Shown here: positions 9,343 to 36,734 of the stretch, one piece after another
How the letters are laid out: each line of letters opens with the position of its first letter
Position numbering within the stretch: position 1 is the first letter of the stretch
Assembly: GCA_030427245.1 (NCBI GenBank)
Contig: JAUHXA010000005.1
Coordinates: forward strand, 124,001-188,000
DNA length: 64,000 nt
Direction: 5' to 3'
From: Bacteroidia bacterium
GTDB lineage: Bacteria > Bacteroidota > Bacteroidia > Chitinophagales > UBA2359
Position numbers and translations under genes: made by a program
The notes under the pieces: model-generated
What the model was told of the DNA's origin: nothing
Database searches by the model: none
What the model saw: the letters and a program-made list of their open reading frames with translations, nothing else

Positions 9343-10695
9343 ATGGAATATACGTTACTTTTAGCCGTTTTGGGAGCAGTTGCCTTACTATTGTTTTTGA
9401 TATTGGCGTGTCGGATGCAAGCATTTTTGGCATTGTTAATCAGCAGTATAGCCGTTGGATTATTCACAGGGATGTCCTTTGAAGCCATTGTAGAAAACAT
9501 TCAAAAAGGAATGGGAGGTACATTGGGTTATGTGGCAACCGTCGTAGGAATTGGGGCAATTTTTGGAGCAATCTTGGAACACAGTGGTGCAACTCAACGA
9601 CTTTCTACCTATTTGTTGGAGAAATTTGGAGAGGAAAAAGCACCGATAGCTTTGTCAATTGCGGGTTTTTTGATAGCGATACCTGTGTTTTTTGATGTTG
9701 CCTTTGTGATATTGGTACCGATGCTCTATGCCCTCCAAAAAAAGACCCAAAAATCCCTGCTTTTTTTTGCGATTCCCTTATTAGCGAGTTTGGCTGTCAC
9801 CCATGCTTTCATACCGCCTACGCCCGGTCCGATAGCAGTGGCAGACATCATTGAAGTGCCTTTGGGTTGGGTGATTTTGATGGGGTTCATGGTCGGGATA
9901 CCCACAACTTTGGTGGCGGGAATTTTCTTCGGTAAGTACATTGCAGGGAAAATTCACATTGAAGTTCCCCAAACGATGGATGTTGCTTTTTCGGAAGACG
10001 ATGAAGGGAAAGAGGTCTCTATTGGCTTAATTTTCTTGTTGATATTGACTCCAATCGTGCTGATTCTCGGCAATACCTTGACGGATATGTTCTTGAAAAG
10101 TGAACGCATAGAAGCGGGATTTATGCCCGATTTAATCAAATTTTTGGGACATCCTTTTGTTGCACTCATTATCAGTACTTTATTGGCATTGTATTTTTTG
10201 GGAACAAGGCAAGGCTACAACCGACAAGAACTGCAAAACATCAGCACCAAAGCTTTGGCTCCTGCAGGTGTGATTATTTTGATTACAGGAGCTGGCGGAG
10301 TTTTCAAGCAAATGTTGATAGAAAGTGGGGCTGGAGTGATGATTGCCGAACAAATGATTGCCTACAACATACTGCCCCTTTTATTGGCTTTTTTGTTGGC
10401 ACTGATGGTGCGTGTCTTACAAGGTTCTGCGACGGTTGCGATGATTACCGCAGCAGGCATCATCGCCCCTGTTTTGGAAAACATGGTGGTCTCAGAGCCT
10501 CAATTGGCTTTAATTGTTTTGAGTATTGCGGCGGGTGCAAGTGGTTTTTCGCATGTCAATGACAGCGGTTTTTGGTTGGTCAATCAATACCTCGGACTGA
10601 CCGAAGCCCAAACTTTGAAGAGTTGGACGGTAATGACAGGAATTTTGGCTTTTACGGCTTTGGGGATTTTGTTTCTGTTGGGAATGTTGGTTTAA
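9343..10695 (+). CDS. gntP: Gluconate:H+ symporter, GntP family
   Basis: A 450-residue inner membrane permease with about 12-14 hydrophobic segments. Family motifs visible are the long first helices (LLLAVLGAVALLLFLILACR), FFDVAFVILVPMLYAL, HAFIPPTPGPIAVADII, and the C-terminal VRVLQGSATVAMITAAGII plus GASGFSHVNDSGFWLV; the last two contain the conserved polar residues inside the membrane. Placement directly after gntK and gnd supports gluconate (or a related sugar acid) as substrate. Its stop lies two bases from the stop of the convergent T9SS gene, with no terminator between. Confidence 0.94.
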   Translation: MEYTLLLAVLGAVALLLFLILACRMQAFLALLISSIAVGLFTGMSFEAIVENIQKGMGGTLGYVATVVGIGAIFGAILEHSGATQRLSTYLLEKFGEEKAPIALSIAGFLIAIPVFFDVAFVILVPMLYALQKKTQKSLLFFAIPLLASLAVTHAFIPPTPGPIAVADIIEVPLGWVILMGFMVGIPTTLVAGIFFGKYIAGKIHIEVPQTMDVAFSEDDEGKEVSIGLIFLLILTPIVLILGNTLTDMFLKSERIEAGFMPDLIKFLGHPFVALIISTLLALYFLGTRQGYNRQELQNISTKALAPAGVIILITGAGGVFKQMLIESGAGVMIAEQMIAYNILPLLLAFLLALMVRVLQGSATVAMITAAGIIAPVLENMVVSEPQLALIVLSIAAGASGFSHVNDSGFWLVNQYLGLTEAQTLKSWTVMTGILAFTALGILFLLGMLV

Positions 10696-10697
10696 GA

Positions 10698-13544
10698 TTA
10701 CCGCACAACCACCTTCTCCCAAACCTCGCCCAACTTCAACAAATACAAGCCTTTTTTCAATCCACTGCAATCTACTTCCGCTTTATTTGTATTTCCTTCA
10801 ATGCTTTGACGCAAAACCACTTGCCCCAAAGTATTCACCAACTCCAATTCCAAATTTTCCATCGAAGGATTGCCAAATTCTACAAACAGTTTATCGGAAG
10901 TAGGAATAGGATAGATATTTTGAATATACAATTTAGAAGGGCTTTGACGGTGCAAGCTGATTGTTCCCAAATAGCGTATTGTGGCATCCAAATCTGTTTG
11001 TGAGAGGCGATAATAAGTTGTACCCATTGGAGGTGATTTGTCTAAAAAGCTGTAAATCTGAGAGAAAGAAGTGGTGCCAATTCCCCGAATTTTCCCAATG
11101 ACTTCAAAATTTTTGCCATCCTCAGAACACTCTAATTGAAAATAATCGTTGTTGGCTTCGGAAGCTGTATTCCATTGCAGAAAATTCCCATCCTCCCTTA
11201 CCTTCCCTTCAAAAAATGTCAATTCAACAGGCAAAGTCGTTTTTAAGCAGTTTTGTACCATTGCAGTATTCGTTGCAATCGGTGCATTGAAGTCGAAGTA
11301 AATATGTGCTTGATTCCCAATCACCAAACCCTCCAGATTGTCGCTTTTTTGTCGAATTCGAAACGACACAAAGCCATGACTTTCAGGTTCATTGTTTAGG
11401 CTGTCCAACAAATTGATGTCGTCAAAAATCCACACCAAGACATTCGGTTGGTGAAATTCCAATTCGTAATTGTGACTGCTCGCTCCTCTATGAAAGCTCT
11501 CCAATTCAACCGATTCGGGCAAAGTGTCCATCACCATCACCCGATAAGCCGTATCATTTCCCGTATTCTGAAAACGAATCGTATAGTCCAACCAACCACT
11601 TTCGAACACACAATCCTCGCCTTCAATAGGCTGTTCGTATTCCACTTGTATGTCATTTGGGTCGTAAGAATTGGTGACATCCAGGCAAGTAATGGATTCG
11701 TCTATCGGACGTGCTTCTCCACAATGGTCATTCGGAAAAATGCGGGCTTCTACGCAAACTTGTTCATCAATTTGAGCATCGCAAGCCGTTTTATATTGCA
11801 GATAAATGCTCCGACATTTTCCCCAGTCCAAATCAGCAGGTTCAAAAACATAGAGTCCATTTTCTTGAGTGAAAGGTGTTTGACTGCTGATATTTTCGAG
11901 CAAAGGACTGATTTGTAATTCAATGCGAATATCCTCTGCATCCGTATTTCCATCATTGCAGTATTCAATCGCTAGTGTTGCTTCTTGACAGGCTCTTGCT
12001 CTCGAAATGCCTACATCTATGTTCATCAAATTGCAGGGAATAGATGGCTGCAAGGCAAAATTGATGTTTTCAATGGTTTGGTAAAGTGTATCAAAAGTGA
12101 CCGTATAGTTTTCTTCACAATTGGTTTCCCAAATATCGGGAGTGGTAGAAATGGAAATGTTGTAAGTGCCTGTGTCAACTACAAAACTGAATTCTCCAAA
12201 ATTGCTGCTGACTATTTCTTGAACACCATTATTCAATGATATAAAAGCGTTAGGAACAGCCCTTTCCAATACATCTAACTCACAGTTTGCTGTTTCGTCA
12301 GCATAAACTTTTCCTGCTATTACATTTTGGCAAGTGTGTCCTAATTTGTCAATTCTTTTAAGAAATATTTTTTGGTCGGAATTAGAATTGGAAAAAACGC
12401 CAGTAGTAATGTATCCTTCTTCCTTGACATTGGCTATATCAGTAGGAGTGTACTCAGGTGCATTGTGATTGTTAGTTGACAAGTAATTGCCTGCTAAATT
12501 TATAGGAGAAGTAAATAAAGAAGATTCATGTGGTTCGGTATAAAATGTATAGCTTTTATAACCAATACCCATAATGTTTCCATTGGTGTTTTCAACCATA
12601 TCTGTATTCAAATATGAAGACTGTTTATACATGTTTTGAAGCTCTCCATTTTCATCAATATTTAACAAAAGTGTTACTGAACTTGCATCATAACAATAAA
12701 GAGGAATGTGAATTAAGCTTAATAAATATTCATTGTTATTTTTATGAATAACATGGTTTATTCTAATTGAATTGGTTCCACAAAGACCTGGTTCATCTAT
12801 GTTGTAAAAGGATTTCCAAATGACTTGACCATTTCCGTCAATTTTTATCAAAGAGGGGAAATCTACATCAGATAACTCAACCCGTCCTGCTATAATATAC
12901 TGATTATTGTGATTTGTGTTATTAATTGAAATGCCACTTGTTGAATATTCAAAAGGGTCATTGGGGAATGTAATACCAGTATTATTTTGCCAAATAACCT
13001 CTCCACTTTGATTAATTTTTACAAAAAAAGCAGAATTTATAGTATAAGAAGGATAATTGGATAGATCAATTGACCCAAGTAGTATATAGTGACCATCATC
13101 GGTAGCAATTAAACTGCTACCAGAAGATTTTTCTATCAATGCTTTTTCCCAAATAGTTTCTCCAGATAAACTGATTTTAGCATAATACAATCTTTTAATA
13201 AAGGCTGTACCATTGTCTTCAATAGCAGTTCCCATTATCAGATATCCATCATTGCTAATTGTAGGAACAAAAGCAGAAATGCCATTTTTTTGATAACCTT
13301 CTGTATTGTATTGATTTCTCCAAAGTTCGTTTCCCAAAGGATCTGTCTTTAACAGCAAAACACTGTATCCTTCATTTTCCGTGTGTACTGTTGCCCCAAT
13401 AATATAGCCACCATCGATGCTTTGTTCAACGCAACAAACCGATCTTAAATCTTCAACATCATACAGTTCCGTGCAGAGTTGGGCTTGAATAGACATCGAG
13501 AAACAAAAGGTAAATAAACAAAAAATCAGTAGTCGTTTTTTCAT
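10698..13544 (-). CDS. T9SS-secreted protein with beta-propeller-like N-terminus and sorting domain
   Basis: A 948-residue exported protein. It has a signal peptide (residues 1-21, ending SIQAQ) and then about 370 residues of repeats with the pattern 'DGGYIIG...LLLKTDPLGNELW', which suggests a beta-propeller. A carboxypeptidase-regulatory-like domain follows (GKVYADETANCELDVLERAV...), then a DUF11-like region ending IYFDFNAPIATNTAMVQ, a FN3-like module (FLQWNTASEANNDYFQLE), and a C-terminal T9SS type A sorting domain (IYPIPTSDKLFVEF ... GLYLLKLGEVWEKVVVR). It is expected on the cell surface or outside the cell. The last 237 bases are nearly identical to those of the next T9SS gene. No enzymatic motif was seen; a structural or adhesive role is inference. 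Confidence 0.85.
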   Translation of the reverse strand: MKKRLLIFCLFTFCFSMSIQAQLCTELYDVEDLRSVCCVEQSIDGGYIIGATVHTENEGYSVLLLKTDPLGNELWRNQYNTEGYQKNGISAFVPTISNDGYLIMGTAIEDNGTAFIKRLYYAKISLSGETIWEKALIEKSSGSSLIATDDGHYILLGSIDLSNYPSYTINSAFFVKINQSGEVIWQNNTGITFPNDPFEYSTSGISINNTNHNNQYIIAGRVELSDVDFPSLIKIDGNGQVIWKSFYNIDEPGLCGTNSIRINHVIHKNNNEYLLSLIHIPLYCYDASSVTLLLNIDENGELQNMYKQSSYLNTDMVENTNGNIMGIGYKSYTFYTEPHESSLFTSPINLAGNYLSTNNHNAPEYTPTDIANVKEEGYITTGVFSNSNSDQKIFLKRIDKLGHTCQNVIAGKVYADETANCELDVLERAVPNAFISLNNGVQEIVSSNFGEFSFVVDTGTYNISISTTPDIWETNCEENYTVTFDTLYQTIENINFALQPSIPCNLMNIDVGISRARACQEATLAIEYCNDGNTDAEDIRIELQISPLLENISSQTPFTQENGLYVFEPADLDWGKCRSIYLQYKTACDAQIDEQVCVEARIFPNDHCGEARPIDESITCLDVTNSYDPNDIQVEYEQPIEGEDCVFESGWLDYTIRFQNTGNDTAYRVMVMDTLPESVELESFHRGASSHNYELEFHQPNVLVWIFDDINLLDSLNNEPESHGFVSFRIRQKSDNLEGLVIGNQAHIYFDFNAPIATNTAMVQNCLKTTLPVELTFFEGKVREDGNFLQWNTASEANNDYFQLECSEDGKNFEVIGKIRGIGTTSFSQIYSFLDKSPPMGTTYYRLSQTDLDATIRYLGTISLHRQSPSKLYIQNIYPIPTSDKLFVEFGNPSMENLELELVNTLGQVVLRQSIEGNTNKAEVDCSGLKKGLYLLKLGEVWEKVVVR

Positions 13545-33408: not shown

Positions 33409-34818
33409 ATGAAATTATTTGCAGTAAAATCCATTTTGTGTTTATTGCTGTCCCTCACTTTCTCTTTCAGCGTCACTTTTGCGGATGTCGAAAAAATACG
33501 TTGGCTTACCGATATTGAAGAAGCGAAACAAAAAGCCGAAGAGCACCAAATACCTATTTTGCTGGTCTTTTCAGGTTCCGATTGGTGCAAACCTTGCATG
33601 AAATTGAAGCAAGAAATACTGACAAGCGTTGAATTTGAAAAATACGCCTTCAAAAATTTGGTCTTGGTAGAATTGGATTTTCCTGCTCAAAAGAAGAACC
33701 GACTGAGCGATGAACAGACCAAGCACAATGAAGCTTTGGCGGAAAAATACAATACCAAAGGAGCATTTCCTTTGATGGTGGTGGTGAATCATTCTGAAAA
33801 AAAACTGGGTGAAATAGGTTACAAAAAAGACTATACTGTTGCGGATTACATCAATTATTTTTCAAGTTTTTCCAAACACAGTTTTAACCCGAAAACCCAA
33901 ACAAAGGTATTGAAGTTGATGGGTTCACGCTTTGAAGTGTCTGCTATTCACAACGATGTAGGATTGGCTTGGGAGGCGATAAATGCGGGAATCCAAGAAA
34001 TTACCCGCATCGAAAAACTCATTTCTTCTTGGGATGAAGCCTCCCAAACGAGTGAAATCAATCGAAATGCTGGCATTGAAGCAGTCAAGGTCGACAAGGA
34101 ATTGTACGATTTGATTCACCGTGCTTTGAAGGTATCGAAACTGACGGATGGAGCTTTTGACATCAGTTTTGCTTCAATGGAAAAGGTGTGGAAATTTGAT
34201 GGTTCGATGACGGAGTTGCCAAGCGAGGAAGCGATTGTGGCATCGGTCGCAAAGGTGAATTACCAAAACATTCTTTTGGATGCGGAGGCGCAAACGGTTT
34301 TTTTGAAGGAAAAAGGGATGCGTATTGGCTTTGGAGCAATTGGAAAAGGCTATGCGGCAAATCGTGCAAAGGCAATTATGCAAGAAATGGGCATTGACAA
34401 TGGATTGGTGAGCGCAGGCGGTGATTTGATTGGTTGGGGCGAACAAGAGGATGGTACTGAGTGGAAAATTGGCATTGCCGACCCAGAGGAAAAGGATAAG
34501 ATTTTTTCTTGGTTGAGCATTGTCAATCAAAGTGTTGTGACTTCTGGCAATTATGAAAAATTTGCTATGATTGACGGCAAACGTTATGCCCATATCATTG
34601 ACCCTCGCACTGGAATGCCTGTTATTGGTTTAAAAAGTGTGACGGTGATTTGTCCCGATGCGGAATTGGCGGATGCTTTGGCGACTTCGATTTTTGTGCT
34701 GGGCGAAAAGGCAGGTTTGGATTTGGTGAATCAATTGAAGGGCATTGAAGCTTTACTGGTGACGGACGAAAACGAAATCAAGACATCAGAGAATTTGGAC
34801 TTGAATTATTATAAATAG
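33409..34818 (+). CDS. Exported thioredoxin domain fused to ApbE-type FAD:protein FMN transferase
   Basis: A 469-residue fusion protein. Residues 1-25 are a signal peptide. Residues about 26-150 are a thioredoxin-like domain (FSGSDWCKPCMKLKQEI, active-site Cys60-x-x-Cys63; GAFPLMVVV). Residues about 165-460 are ApbE: SRFEVSAIHND, LISSWDEASQTSEINRNAG, GAFDISFASMEKVW, GFGAIGKGYAANRA, SAGGDLIGWG, and HIIDPRTGMPV carrying the Mg/FAD-site Asp-x-x-Thr-Gly. ApbE attaches FMN from FAD to Thr/Ser of target proteins outside the cytoplasm. It is therefore a periplasmic enzyme in which a disulfide reductase and a flavin transferase are one chain. DUF4266 and DUF3570 genes follow, probably co-regulated. 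Confidence 0.93.
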   Translation: MKLFAVKSILCLLLSLTFSFSVTFADVEKIRWLTDIEEAKQKAEEHQIPILLVFSGSDWCKPCMKLKQEILTSVEFEKYAFKNLVLVELDFPAQKKNRLSDEQTKHNEALAEKYNTKGAFPLMVVVNHSEKKLGEIGYKKDYTVADYINYFSSFSKHSFNPKTQTKVLKLMGSRFEVSAIHNDVGLAWEAINAGIQEITRIEKLISSWDEASQTSEINRNAGIEAVKVDKELYDLIHRALKVSKLTDGAFDISFASMEKVWKFDGSMTELPSEEAIVASVAKVNYQNILLDAEAQTVFLKEKGMRIGFGAIGKGYAANRAKAIMQEMGIDNGLVSAGGDLIGWGEQEDGTEWKIGIADPEEKDKIFSWLSIVNQSVVTSGNYEKFAMIDGKRYAHIIDPRTGMPVIGLKSVTVICPDAELADALATSIFVLGEKAGLDLVNQLKGIEALLVTDENEIKTSENLDLNYYK

Positions 34819-34820
34819 TT

Positions 34821-34922
34821 GTGTTTGAGTTGATAACTGTCTTTGGGTGTTTGTAGAGACGTTTTACTAAAACGTCTCTACAAACACAAAATGAACCCGA
34901 ACACAATTATCAACATAAACAC
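34821..34922 (+). repeat. Long inverted repeat with a 41-base perfect palindrome (R3 family hairpin)
   Basis: Centred on 34867. Perfect 20-base arms GTGTTTGTAGAGACGTTTTA (34847-34866) and its complement (34868-34887) around one base. Outer arms are imperfect: GTTGATAACTGT...TTGGGT against ACCCGAACACAATTATCAAC. It starts within a few bases of the Trx-ApbE stop codon and ends 20 bases before the DUF4266 start. No T tract follows, so it is not a classical terminator; it may stabilise or separate the transcripts. Confidence 0.7.
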
Positions 34923-34941
34923 CTAAATACAACCAAGAAGT

Positions 34942-35160
34942 ATGAAACTATTCAAAATTTGTTGTTTAAGCACGATTGCTTTTTTCTTCATGACCTCTTG
35001 CGTTTCCGTCAAAGAGTACCAAAAAATGTACCTCAATGATGAGGACATGAAATTGAGCAAACGCAAAATCGAAATGTACGAAACCAATTTTCAGACCTAT
35101 CGAGAAGGTGCTTCTGGTGCCAATGGCGGGAAAGTTGGTGGCGGATGTGGGTGTAATTGA
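34942..35160 (+). CDS. DUF4266 small lipoprotein with C-terminal Gly-Cys motif
   Basis: A 72-residue lipoprotein: signal peptide with lipobox (FFMTSC, Cys at residue 20), then a short charged helical segment (VKEYQKMYLNDEDMKLSKRKIEMYETNFQTY), and a tail ending GGKVGGGCGCN. The terminal Cys-Gly-Cys cluster, after four glycines, is the hallmark of DUF4266. Length matches the family. It lies between the Trx-ApbE gene (123 bases upstream, with a hairpin) and the DUF3570 gene. Known biology of this family: little beyond genomic association with ApbE and DUF3570, as far as I recall. The Cys pair is a possible metal or thiol ligand (inference). Confidence 0.88.
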   Translation: MKLFKICCLSTIAFFFMTSCVSVKEYQKMYLNDEDMKLSKRKIEMYETNFQTYREGASGANGGKVGGGCGCN

Positions 35161-35173
35161 TTTGGGGACTGGC

Positions 35174-35311
35174 TTCATACTACTGTACAAAATGATTTTT
35201 GAACCACAAAAGTCTCAAAAGGGCACAAAAGAGATGGTTGAGTTTCAGTTCTTTACTTTTGTTTTCTTTGTGCCTTTTGTGGTTGAATTAAAAATGTACA
35301 AGTAGTATGAA
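35174..35311 (+). repeat. R1 short inverted-repeat element, copy 2
   Basis: A 138-bp element in the 323-base gap between DUF4266 and DUF3570. Terminal inverted repeats TTCATACTACTGTACA and TGTACAAGTAGTATGAA are nearly perfect. Sub-terminal arms are GAACCACAAAAG and CTTTTGTGGTT. It aligns with the reverse complement of 7167-7291 over its length. On the plus strand it carries TACTTTTG (about 35254-35261), a possible -7 box for the DUF3570 gene. Confidence 0.85.
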
Positions 35312-35483
35312 TTGGTTACAAAATAAGATTGTTTTACCCTTCATTCCCATTATCTTTTCCTTCATTCCGGAGTAACCTTGCGGAGAACTGGACCATCACA
35401 TAATAAGCTCATACACAAGTGTATCCCAAAATCTCAATCACCTTCTTTCTTAATTCCAAACACATAAACACAATCCAAAATAA

Positions 35484-36734
35484 ATGCACAATAAAACACA
35501 AGCTCTCCAACCTTTCTATGCTTTTTTGGCATTGTTTCTAAGCACTTTTACGCTCTTTGCCCAAAGCACACCCGACCCAACAATAGACCAAACCTCCACC
35601 GAAATAGACGCTCCGACCAAAGAATTGGAGGAGGCAGAAATGAATATTTTGTTCAGCTATTACGATCAAGACGGCAATCATTCACCCGTCACAGGAGGCA
35701 CAGGAACGGAGGCATTGCAGGACTATACTTCAACCATTATCATTAATTTGCCGCTGAATGTGAAAAACAAAATAGACATCACGGCGGGTTTTGATTTCTA
35801 TTCCTCTGCTTCAACCGACAATATTGACACCCATGTTTCGTCTGCATCGAGCAGCGATTCGAGGGTTTACTTCAATGTAGGTTATACCCGATTGGTACCA
35901 GAAAAGAACAGAAGTTTTGGGATAATGATTGGTGGGTCAAACGAATACGATGTGACTTCTATACAAGGTGGACTGAATTTTAGTCAAGCCTCGAAAGACA
36001 ACAACCGAGAAATCAGCCTTGCGGCACAAGCCTTTATTGACAATTGGACATTCTATTATCCCTCCGAACTGCGGGGACAAGGGAAATTACTCCCTACCAA
36101 TGTTCGCCAATCTTACAACTTGTCGGCTACCTATTCGCAAGTTGTTAACAAACGGATGCAAGTGGCTTTCAATCCCGAAGTAGTGTATCAGTCAGGGCTA
36201 TTGTCAACGCCTTTTCACCGAGTCTTTTTTGCAGAACAAACCCAAGCCAAAGTCGAACAATTGCCGAGTTCTCGCCTCAAAATTCCATTGGGTGTGCGAA
36301 TGAATTATTACCTGTCTGACAAAATTTTGCTGCGCTCTTATTACCGCTTTTATACCGATGATTGGGGCATCACAGGACACACCGCAAGCATAGAAATCCC
36401 CTTCAAAATCAACCGTTTCTTTTCCATCTATCCACACTACCGCTACTATACCCAAACGGCTGCCGACTACTTCCGACCCTTCAAAGAACACAGCCTTTCC
36501 GAAACTTTTTATACTTCGGATTACGACCTTTCGGCATTTAGCAGTCAGCAATATGGAGTTGGTCTTCACTATTCTCCTGTCAATGGAATTGGACGCATGA
36601 AGATGCTCAAATTGGGTAAAAAACCTGCCAACGTATTGTTGTTCAAAAGCATAGATTTGCGGGGTGCGCTGTACGATAGAAGTGATGGATTGAAGGCTTG
36701 GTTGATTAGCTTGGATATGGGTTTTACTTTTTAG
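35484..36734 (+). CDS. DUF3570 outer membrane beta-barrel protein
   Basis: A 416-residue predicted outer membrane protein with a signal peptide (residues 1-27, ending LFAQ). After a Thr/Glu-rich linker comes the family's N-terminal motif near residues 64-82 (SPVTGGTGTEALQDY), followed by amphipathic strands with aromatic girdles (KNKIDITAGFDFYSS; SRVYFNVGYTRLVP; MQVAFNPEVVYQSG; KILLRSYYRFYTDDWG; FSIYPHYRYYTQT) and an aromatic C-terminal residue (LDMGFTF), typical of barrels inserted by BAM. It belongs with the DUF4266 and ApbE genes upstream. The MITE-like R1 lies between. It overlaps by 11 bases the convergent zinc-finger gene. What it transports or holds is unknown. Confidence 0.87.
   Translation: MHNKTQALQPFYAFLALFLSTFTLFAQSTPDPTIDQTSTEIDAPTKELEEAEMNILFSYYDQDGNHSPVTGGTGTEALQDYTSTIIINLPLNVKNKIDITAGFDFYSSASTDNIDTHVSSASSSDSRVYFNVGYTRLVPEKNRSFGIMIGGSNEYDVTSIQGGLNFSQASKDNNREISLAAQAFIDNWTFYYPSELRGQGKLLPTNVRQSYNLSATYSQVVNKRMQVAFNPEVVYQSGLLSTPFHRVFFAEQTQAKVEQLPSSRLKIPLGVRMNYYLSDKILLRSYYRFYTDDWGITGHTASIEIPFKINRFFSIYPHYRYYTQTAADYFRPFKEHSLSETFYTSDYDLSAFSSQQYGVGLHYSPVNGIGRMKMLKLGKKPANVLLFKSIDLRGALYDRSDGLKAWLISLDMGFTF

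Follow-up and report, generated by a model that had tools for sequence, protein, structure and literature searches.

The locus and its relation to a published system

Three neighboring genes on the + strand of a 64,000 nt stretch of contig JAUHXA010000005.1 (assembly GCA_030427245.1, a Bacteroidia bacterium; the whole stretch is referred to here as the window) encode a fusion of a thioredoxin (Trx) with ApbE, a DUF4266 lipoprotein and a DUF3570 protein, respectively. An original prediction, made from the DNA sequence alone, had proposed that these genes form an extracytoplasmic redox system; the open reading frames (ORFs) and coordinates given there were exact, and the proposal is supported by the conservation of the gene set and the predicted barrel described below. 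The first gene (33409..34818, +) encodes a 469 aa protein with a signal peptide, which combines a periplasmic FAD:protein FMN transferase (i.e., an enzyme transferring flavin mononucleotide [FMN] from flavin adenine dinucleotide [FAD]) with a Trx domain. Pfam places Thioredoxin_7 (PF13899) at residues 31-126 (46.8 bits against a cut-off of 27) and a full-length ApbE domain (PF02424) at residues 171-450 (4.3e-85). The Trx active site is Cys60-Lys-Pro-Cys63 (CKPC; 33586..33597, +), and the ApbE catalytic segment, (H-I-I-)DPRTG, at residues 398-402 (34600..34614, +), aligns with that of solved ApbE. The nearest solved structures are 7esa for the ApbE half (1e-46) and Chlamydia DsbH, 2ju5, for the Trx half (1.4e-16), which at 92.7 bits misses the equivalog cut-off for DsbH (190 bits, NCBIfam DisulfRedDsbH). 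Fusion of the two domains is unusual, as it was found only in the window and in L115, a Flavobacteriales metagenome-assembled genome, among all surveyed loci. The second gene (34942..35160, +; Pfam 2.5e-19) encodes a DUF4266 lipoprotein of 72 aa ending in GGGCGCN, with a lipobox Cys20 (34999..35001, +) that is Cys in 96 of 98 close homologues. The third (35484..36734, +; Pfam PF12094, 3.3e-32) encodes the DUF3570 protein of 416 aa, a predicted ApbE substrate and outer-membrane beta-barrel.

By its domain content, the locus belongs to the ApbE/DUF3570/DUF4266/thioredoxin flavinylation system, of which it is a representative from Bacteroidota; this little-studied system has been described previously (Meheust 2021, eLife; PMC8238504). 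The gene association, the flavinylation of DUF3570 and the system in outline are therefore already known, and the view that DUF4266 and DUF3570 have no established function, as held in the original prediction, is outdated. That study identified DUF3570 as an ApbE substrate that is modified at two Ser residues; the C. luteolum DUF3570 was flavinylated by its ApbE, and the modification was abolished only if both motif Ser were replaced. This protein became modified even though it was mostly insoluble, suggesting that a folded barrel is not needed for flavinylation. The reported DUF3570 clusters contain ApbE, a thioredoxin of PF13899, a DUF4266 whose C-terminal CxC is conserved and, in some cases, DsbD; an adjacent DsbD was missing from 316 such clusters, as it is from the window locus, and a hybrid thiol/flavin electron path was proposed along with a possible role in iron through VIT1. 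The words "barrel" and "Rieske" are absent from the main text of that paper, which assigns no topology or location to DUF3570, and a 2024 paper on flavinylated proteins covers other flavinylated folds and does not name DUF3570. Added here are the two predicted acceptor Ser residues in this branch, an outer-membrane barrel with putatively extracellular flavins, a reading of the DUF4266 tail by analogy with Erv2, and the Rieske and heavy-metal neighbors.

Predicted flavinylation sites of DUF3570

Site conservation was counted over 98 DUF3570 homologues with 20-54% identity. The first predicted site, D104-F-Y-S-S-A-S110 (35793..35813, +), would carry FMN on Ser110, and both Ala109 and Ser110 are invariant (98/98); the second, S119-S-A-S122 (35838..35849, +), would carry FMN on Ser122, which is conserved in 96/98. 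The same alignment columns read DSVSGAS...VSGAS in the Chlorobi-type branch versus DFYSSAS...VSSAS in the window, such that both SSAS motifs of the window (residues 107-110 and 119-122) align with the SGAS motifs of the class in which flavinylation was found experimentally. Position 104, which is Asp in 82/98 homologues, corresponds to the Asp of the flavinylation tag D-x-x-[S/T]-G-A-[S/T] (PMC12052999). The Gly of this motif is replaced by Ser at the window sites, as it is at site 1 in 87/98 homologues, and the consensus of the Bacteroidota branch is relaxed to SSAS, TSAS or ASAS at site 1 and to SSAS, SGAS, SSPS or SSDS at site 2. Based on this alignment, it is very probable that FMN is attached to Ser110 and Ser122 of the window DUF3570. 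The statement in the original prediction that DUF3570 lacks a flavinylation motif, and that the target lies elsewhere or uses a new motif, was thus not upheld. The Thr-rich segment that had been put forward as a candidate new motif, SPVTGGTGTEALQDY (residues 67-81; 35682..35726, +), was rejected as a flavin acceptor for two reasons: its Thr residues are variable, with Glu or Gln replacing Thr70 in 14/85 and Thr73 retained in only 6/85, and the Chlorobi-type branch either lacks the segment or has a divergent one. It represents a branch-specific motif of strand 1 and the predicted extracellular loop 1.

Predicted fold and topology of DUF3570

AlphaFold predicts a 16-strand barrel for the window DUF3570, with a mean predicted local distance difference test (pLDDT) score of 90.6, and VIA-align/Foldseek matches to BamA, PgaA, BcsC, OmpG and FadL run from the N- to the C-terminus along these barrels. 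While the matched barrels are generic and uninformative on function, they agree with the earlier suggestion that DUF3570 is the outer-membrane station of the system. Strand positions and side-chain facing were taken from the DSSP string and hydropathy of a single-chain model, which includes neither FMN nor a partner. Both barrel ends would be periplasmic, as in the matched barrels, and the loops after odd strands would therefore be extracellular. Odd-side loops total 96 residues versus 47 on the even side, and the two lower thirds of the barrel have outward hydropathies of 1.51 and 1.36, compared with -0.92 for the upper third, i.e., the strands on the extracellular side exceed the hydrophobic belt. 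By strand parity, both flavin sites map to extracellular loop 2 and its borders. Conservation is likewise concentrated on the extracellular side, which holds 37 of the 45 most conserved positions; for inward-facing residues it rises from 2.19 in the periplasmic third to 3.06 in the extracellular third, whereas for outward-facing residues it stays at approximately 1.92. The outer mouth contains a polar site of conserved residues, lined by E154, S159, D186, R264, R288, Y290, D292, R320 and Q324, which would provide a natural home for both FMNs. Placement of the flavins at the extracellular end of the barrel is thus quite likely on this model. Since barrel insertion follows passage through the periplasm, flavinylation would have to come first, which fits with the modification of the mostly insoluble C. 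luteolum homologue.

The same FMN sites could also serve a strictly periplasmic system, in which the flavins are located low in the barrel or in contact with periplasmic partners, and metals or disulfides in the periplasm, or an outer-membrane protein, are reduced without any outward transfer. Trx and DsbD are periplasmic and inner-membrane reductants, the solo DUF3570 copy and the Rieske and PepSY-like lipoprotein neighbors described below would suit periplasmic partners, and the published description leaves the location open (PMC8238504). However, strand parity, loop lengths, the hydrophobic belt and conservation all place the sites extracellularly, which makes a periplasmic function somewhat unlikely.

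The Cys-Gly-Cys tail of DUF4266

The C-terminal Cys69-Gly70-Cys71 (CGC; 35146..35154, +) of the window lipoprotein is invariant, as CGC followed by Asn or Gly ends all of the 117 DUF4266 proteins surveyed; loss of this Cys pair in most homologues, a possibility raised in the original prediction, was thus not observed. Beyond the signal peptide, DUF4266 is predicted to be disordered, with a pLDDT below 50 for the tail, suggesting a flexible tether. The stretch between the lipid anchor and CGC comprises approximately 50 residues and is long enough, if extended, to cross a membrane barrel. Erv2 is known to have a flexible C-terminal tail whose CXC shuttle disulfide feeds a flavin center (PMC4019985, PMC3509050). 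With a disordered tail and this precedent, a dithiol shuttle between Trx and FMN represents the most economical role for the tail. By this analogy, it is fairly probable that electrons pass from the CGC tail to the flavins; that the tail does so by reaching through the barrel lumen is a more tentative, model-based suggestion. Of the roles assigned earlier to this tail, its reduction by thioredoxin is plausible and is supported by a gene set that pairs a CxxC Trx partner with an invariant CGC, whereas the idea that the tail carries a metal or cofactor found no direct support and is fitted less well than the dithiol shuttle. A scan of viral contigs for DUF4266 gave no match.

The combination of a CXC shuttle with a flavin is the layout of Erv2 and could also indicate the reverse reaction, in which the flavins oxidize the CGC dithiol, disulfides are made and electrons from periplasmic thiols are exported to an outside acceptor. 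This direction appears very improbable, as the Trx half resembles the reductase DsbH and Chlorobi operons encode DsbD, both of which belong to a reducing pathway, and Pfam did not detect an Erv/ALR domain in any of the three proteins.

Co-occurrence across genomes

A total of 101 close loci were compared, including 80 from GTDB genomes, 19 from class-level relatives, the window and a solo DUF3570 copy. The survey bore out the co-occurrence on which the original prediction depended; Trx, ApbE, DUF4266 and DUF3570 were found all together in 93 of these loci, in almost every case arranged in this order along a single strand. As the sample favors close relatives, the frequency describes this branch. 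Several of the exceptions represent contig ends. CxxC was present in every Trx surveyed. Several Chlorobi-type loci show the gene order Trx, DUF4266, DUF3570, ApbE and DsbD, and the Trx proteins examined there are of the AhpC-TSA/Redoxin class, encoded directly upstream of DUF4266. A thioredoxin-fold partner is thus kept beside DUF4266 despite this change of family, in a non-orthologous replacement that preserves the thiol donor, which suggests that the thiol chemistry of the partner is what matters. Several DUF3570 copies are found per Chlorobi-type genome (e.g., G197, G141 and G177; up to nine among the matches listed, some of which are fragments of one protein), which suggests that flavin barrels have expanded in these genomes. 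Replacement of DUF4266 by a cytochrome, considered for the distant cluster L154, was rejected because an ORF for a CGCG-tailed DUF4266 is present there.

The genome of the window contains one DUF4266, two ApbE, two DsbD (DsbD_TM) and two DUF3570 genes. The second DUF3570 (L033:9124-10383, -; G000:C18:66782-67744) stands alone, without Trx, ApbE or DUF4266, and keeps TSAS and SSAS motifs; by its sequence it represents an orphan substrate, which would need ApbE in trans. ApbE is needed for Nqr and Rnf in many bacteria, as is known for this family, and the fusion could therefore serve another substrate, such as an Nqr subunit, with its position next to DUF3570 being incidental. While the presence of a second ApbE in the genome can be taken to favor this idea, that second enzyme can itself serve Nqr or Rnf. 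As the association recurs in the loci surveyed and a homologous DUF3570 has been flavinylated experimentally (PMC8238504), an incidental tandem is hardly credible.

Metal, Rieske and cytochrome genes near the cluster

Recurrent neighbors of the Rieske, VIT1 and CusA type extend the published picture of the system. VIT1 flanks 15/100 loci, on the same strand in 14. Of 19 genomes with approximately one VIT1 each, 8 have this gene no more than 10 kb away from DUF3570, in arrangements of several kinds; one of these eight copies is broken. Estimates of the enrichment of VIT1 and of resistance-nodulation-division (RND) genes ignore the close kinship of several genomes. In L040 (10488-19203, one strand), the cluster continues into genes for a CopR/CusR-like regulator, a sensor kinase, a CusA/CzcA-OEP RND fusion, CusB and a 372 aa VIT1; the regulator and sensor kinase match heavy-metal types best in NCBIfam, and neither match reaches the curated cut-off. 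Such extensions into metal genes are seen in some Flavobacteria-like loci, of which L040 is an example. The VIT1 and heavy-metal neighbors point to metals as what the system may reduce. The sole VIT1 gene of the window genome (G000:C20:117531-118163) shares its contig with the window DUF3570, from which it is separated by approximately 42 kb.

The VIT1 genes and the L040 cluster could also indicate a device for metal uptake or detoxification, in which the CGC tail binds Cu or Fe and exchanges the metal with the barrel, Trx maintains the thiols in a free state and the flavins set the redox state of the metal. Most loci lack metal genes, however, and an invariant terminal CGC, the absence of a conserved His and the retention of a Trx partner even from an unrelated family are better explained by thiol exchange; a role of the tail as a metal ligand is thus unlikely.

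In 19/100 loci, the cluster is neighbored by a gene for a small lipoprotein of the Rieske type with a twin-arginine translocation (Tat) signal, which in every case lies on the strand of the cluster. The Rieske lipoprotein is not supported as an obligate component, as its subfamily also occurs in genomes without DUF3570. In the window genome, a Tat-type Rieske [2Fe-2S] lipoprotein is encoded at another locus beside a four-repeat PepSY-like lipoprotein (L139:9469-9876 and 10081-11085; G000:C179), and the same pair adjoins DUF3570 in L058 and L098. A further neighbor (L153:5763-9445), encoded immediately upstream of DUF4266 and DUF3570, is a lipoprotein of 757 aa that contains two CxxCH motifs and a hydrazine-synthase-alpha-like domain. 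In distant clusters, a Tat protein is encoded between DUF3570 and ApbE (L148:7656-8360, with NusG domain II by Pfam; L149:9224-9880; L154:7713-8384), and an 11-CxxCH cytochrome lipoprotein is encoded upstream in L149 (5955-7133).

Proposed electron path

The best explanation overall, which we hold with about even confidence, is a flavinylated outer-membrane barrel that is fed by a thiol tail and delivers electrons to the cell surface. The ApbE half would attach FMN to Ser110 and Ser122 in the periplasm, acting on the unfolded DUF3570 precursor, which would then insert as a 16-strand barrel with both flavins at the extracellular mouth. DUF4266 would be anchored in the outer membrane by its lipid, with the terminal CGC as a shuttle disulfide. 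DsbD, encoded elsewhere in the genome, would reduce the Trx domain and Trx the CGC pair. This pair, which may plausibly extend into the lumen of the barrel, would hand two electrons to the flavins, and these would then pass them on to a cell-surface acceptor, probably Fe(III) or another metal. We infer this topology and electron path, i.e., DsbD to Trx to CGC tail to FMN to an outside acceptor, as the most likely one, although our confidence that the acceptor is a metal falls slightly short of even. The complete scheme of a heme-free trans-outer-membrane conduit, with FMNs at the surface mouth, CGC reaching into the barrel, DsbD and thioredoxin as donors, an extracellular metal acceptor and a Rieske extension in some lineages, is more speculative still. 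A Shewanella paper on DsbD and extracellular disulfides (PMC10986466) was not used as precedent for electron exit through DsbD, since DsbD acts there via cytochrome maturation.

Several observations weigh against this explanation. The window motifs are SSAS rather than literal SGAS, and the topology was derived from strand parity and from rules that hold for barrels in general, applied to a model without FMN or partner. No metal gene adjoins the window locus, and none of the ORFs examined between 28 and 42 kb of the window encodes DsbD. Moreover, the solo DUF3570 occurs without its own DUF4266 in the same genome, so the barrel may work without the tail, and some Chlorobi-type loci have DUF3570 and ApbE without DUF4266.

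If the flavins are indeed located on the outer face of the barrel and receive their electrons from a thiol tail, bacteria would possess a cytochrome-free route for electrons across the outer membrane. Such a route would occur widely in Bacteroidota and Chlorobi-type bacteria, and it would account for the recurrent association with genes for iron and heavy metals. The claim is now specific, as it comes down to two serines, two cysteines and one loop.

Repeats within the locus

A palindromic dispersed repeat, GTAGAGACGTTTTACTAAAACGTCTCTAC (34840..34894, unstranded), with 27-nt arms and a core found at 16 genome sites, lies between the genes for Trx-ApbE and DUF4266 and is outside the proposed mechanism. 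This element is inserted where the genes of relatives overlap or nearly touch. A second inverted repeat with 21-nt arms (window positions 35199-35287), in the gap between DUF4266 and DUF3570, could be another dispersed element. Promoter and terminator scans performed no better than shuffles.

Comparison with known systems

The window shares four domains, the CxC tail and two DUF3570 flavinylation motifs with the "DsbD systems" of Meheust et al. 2021 (PMC8238504), and differs from these by the fusion of Trx to ApbE and by SSAS instead of SGAS. DsbH-type periplasmic thioredoxins (Chlamydia, PDB 2ju5) include the closest solved relative of the window Trx half, although the latter is below the curated cut-off and fused to ApbE. 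With the Erv2/ALR sulfhydryl oxidases (PMC4019985), the window has in common a C-terminal CXC shuttle disulfide, a flexible tail and an adjoining flavin center; in these enzymes, however, the domain is unrelated, the FAD is non-covalent and part of the same protein, and the direction of electrons is opposite to that proposed for the window. Porin-cytochrome conduits (MtrAB/MtrC, Pcc; PMC7198977, PMC4245776) likewise use an outer-membrane barrel with redox cofactors as an electron exit, and no sequence relation to the window proteins was found. A multiheme cytochrome partner was not apparent, as the three window proteins contain no CxxCH and cytochromes are present only in some distant clusters (e.g., L149). 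By comparison with the 26 strands of these conduits, the DUF3570 barrel has 16, FMN would be carried on the barrel itself, and a thiol lipoprotein would take the place of the multiheme cytochrome.

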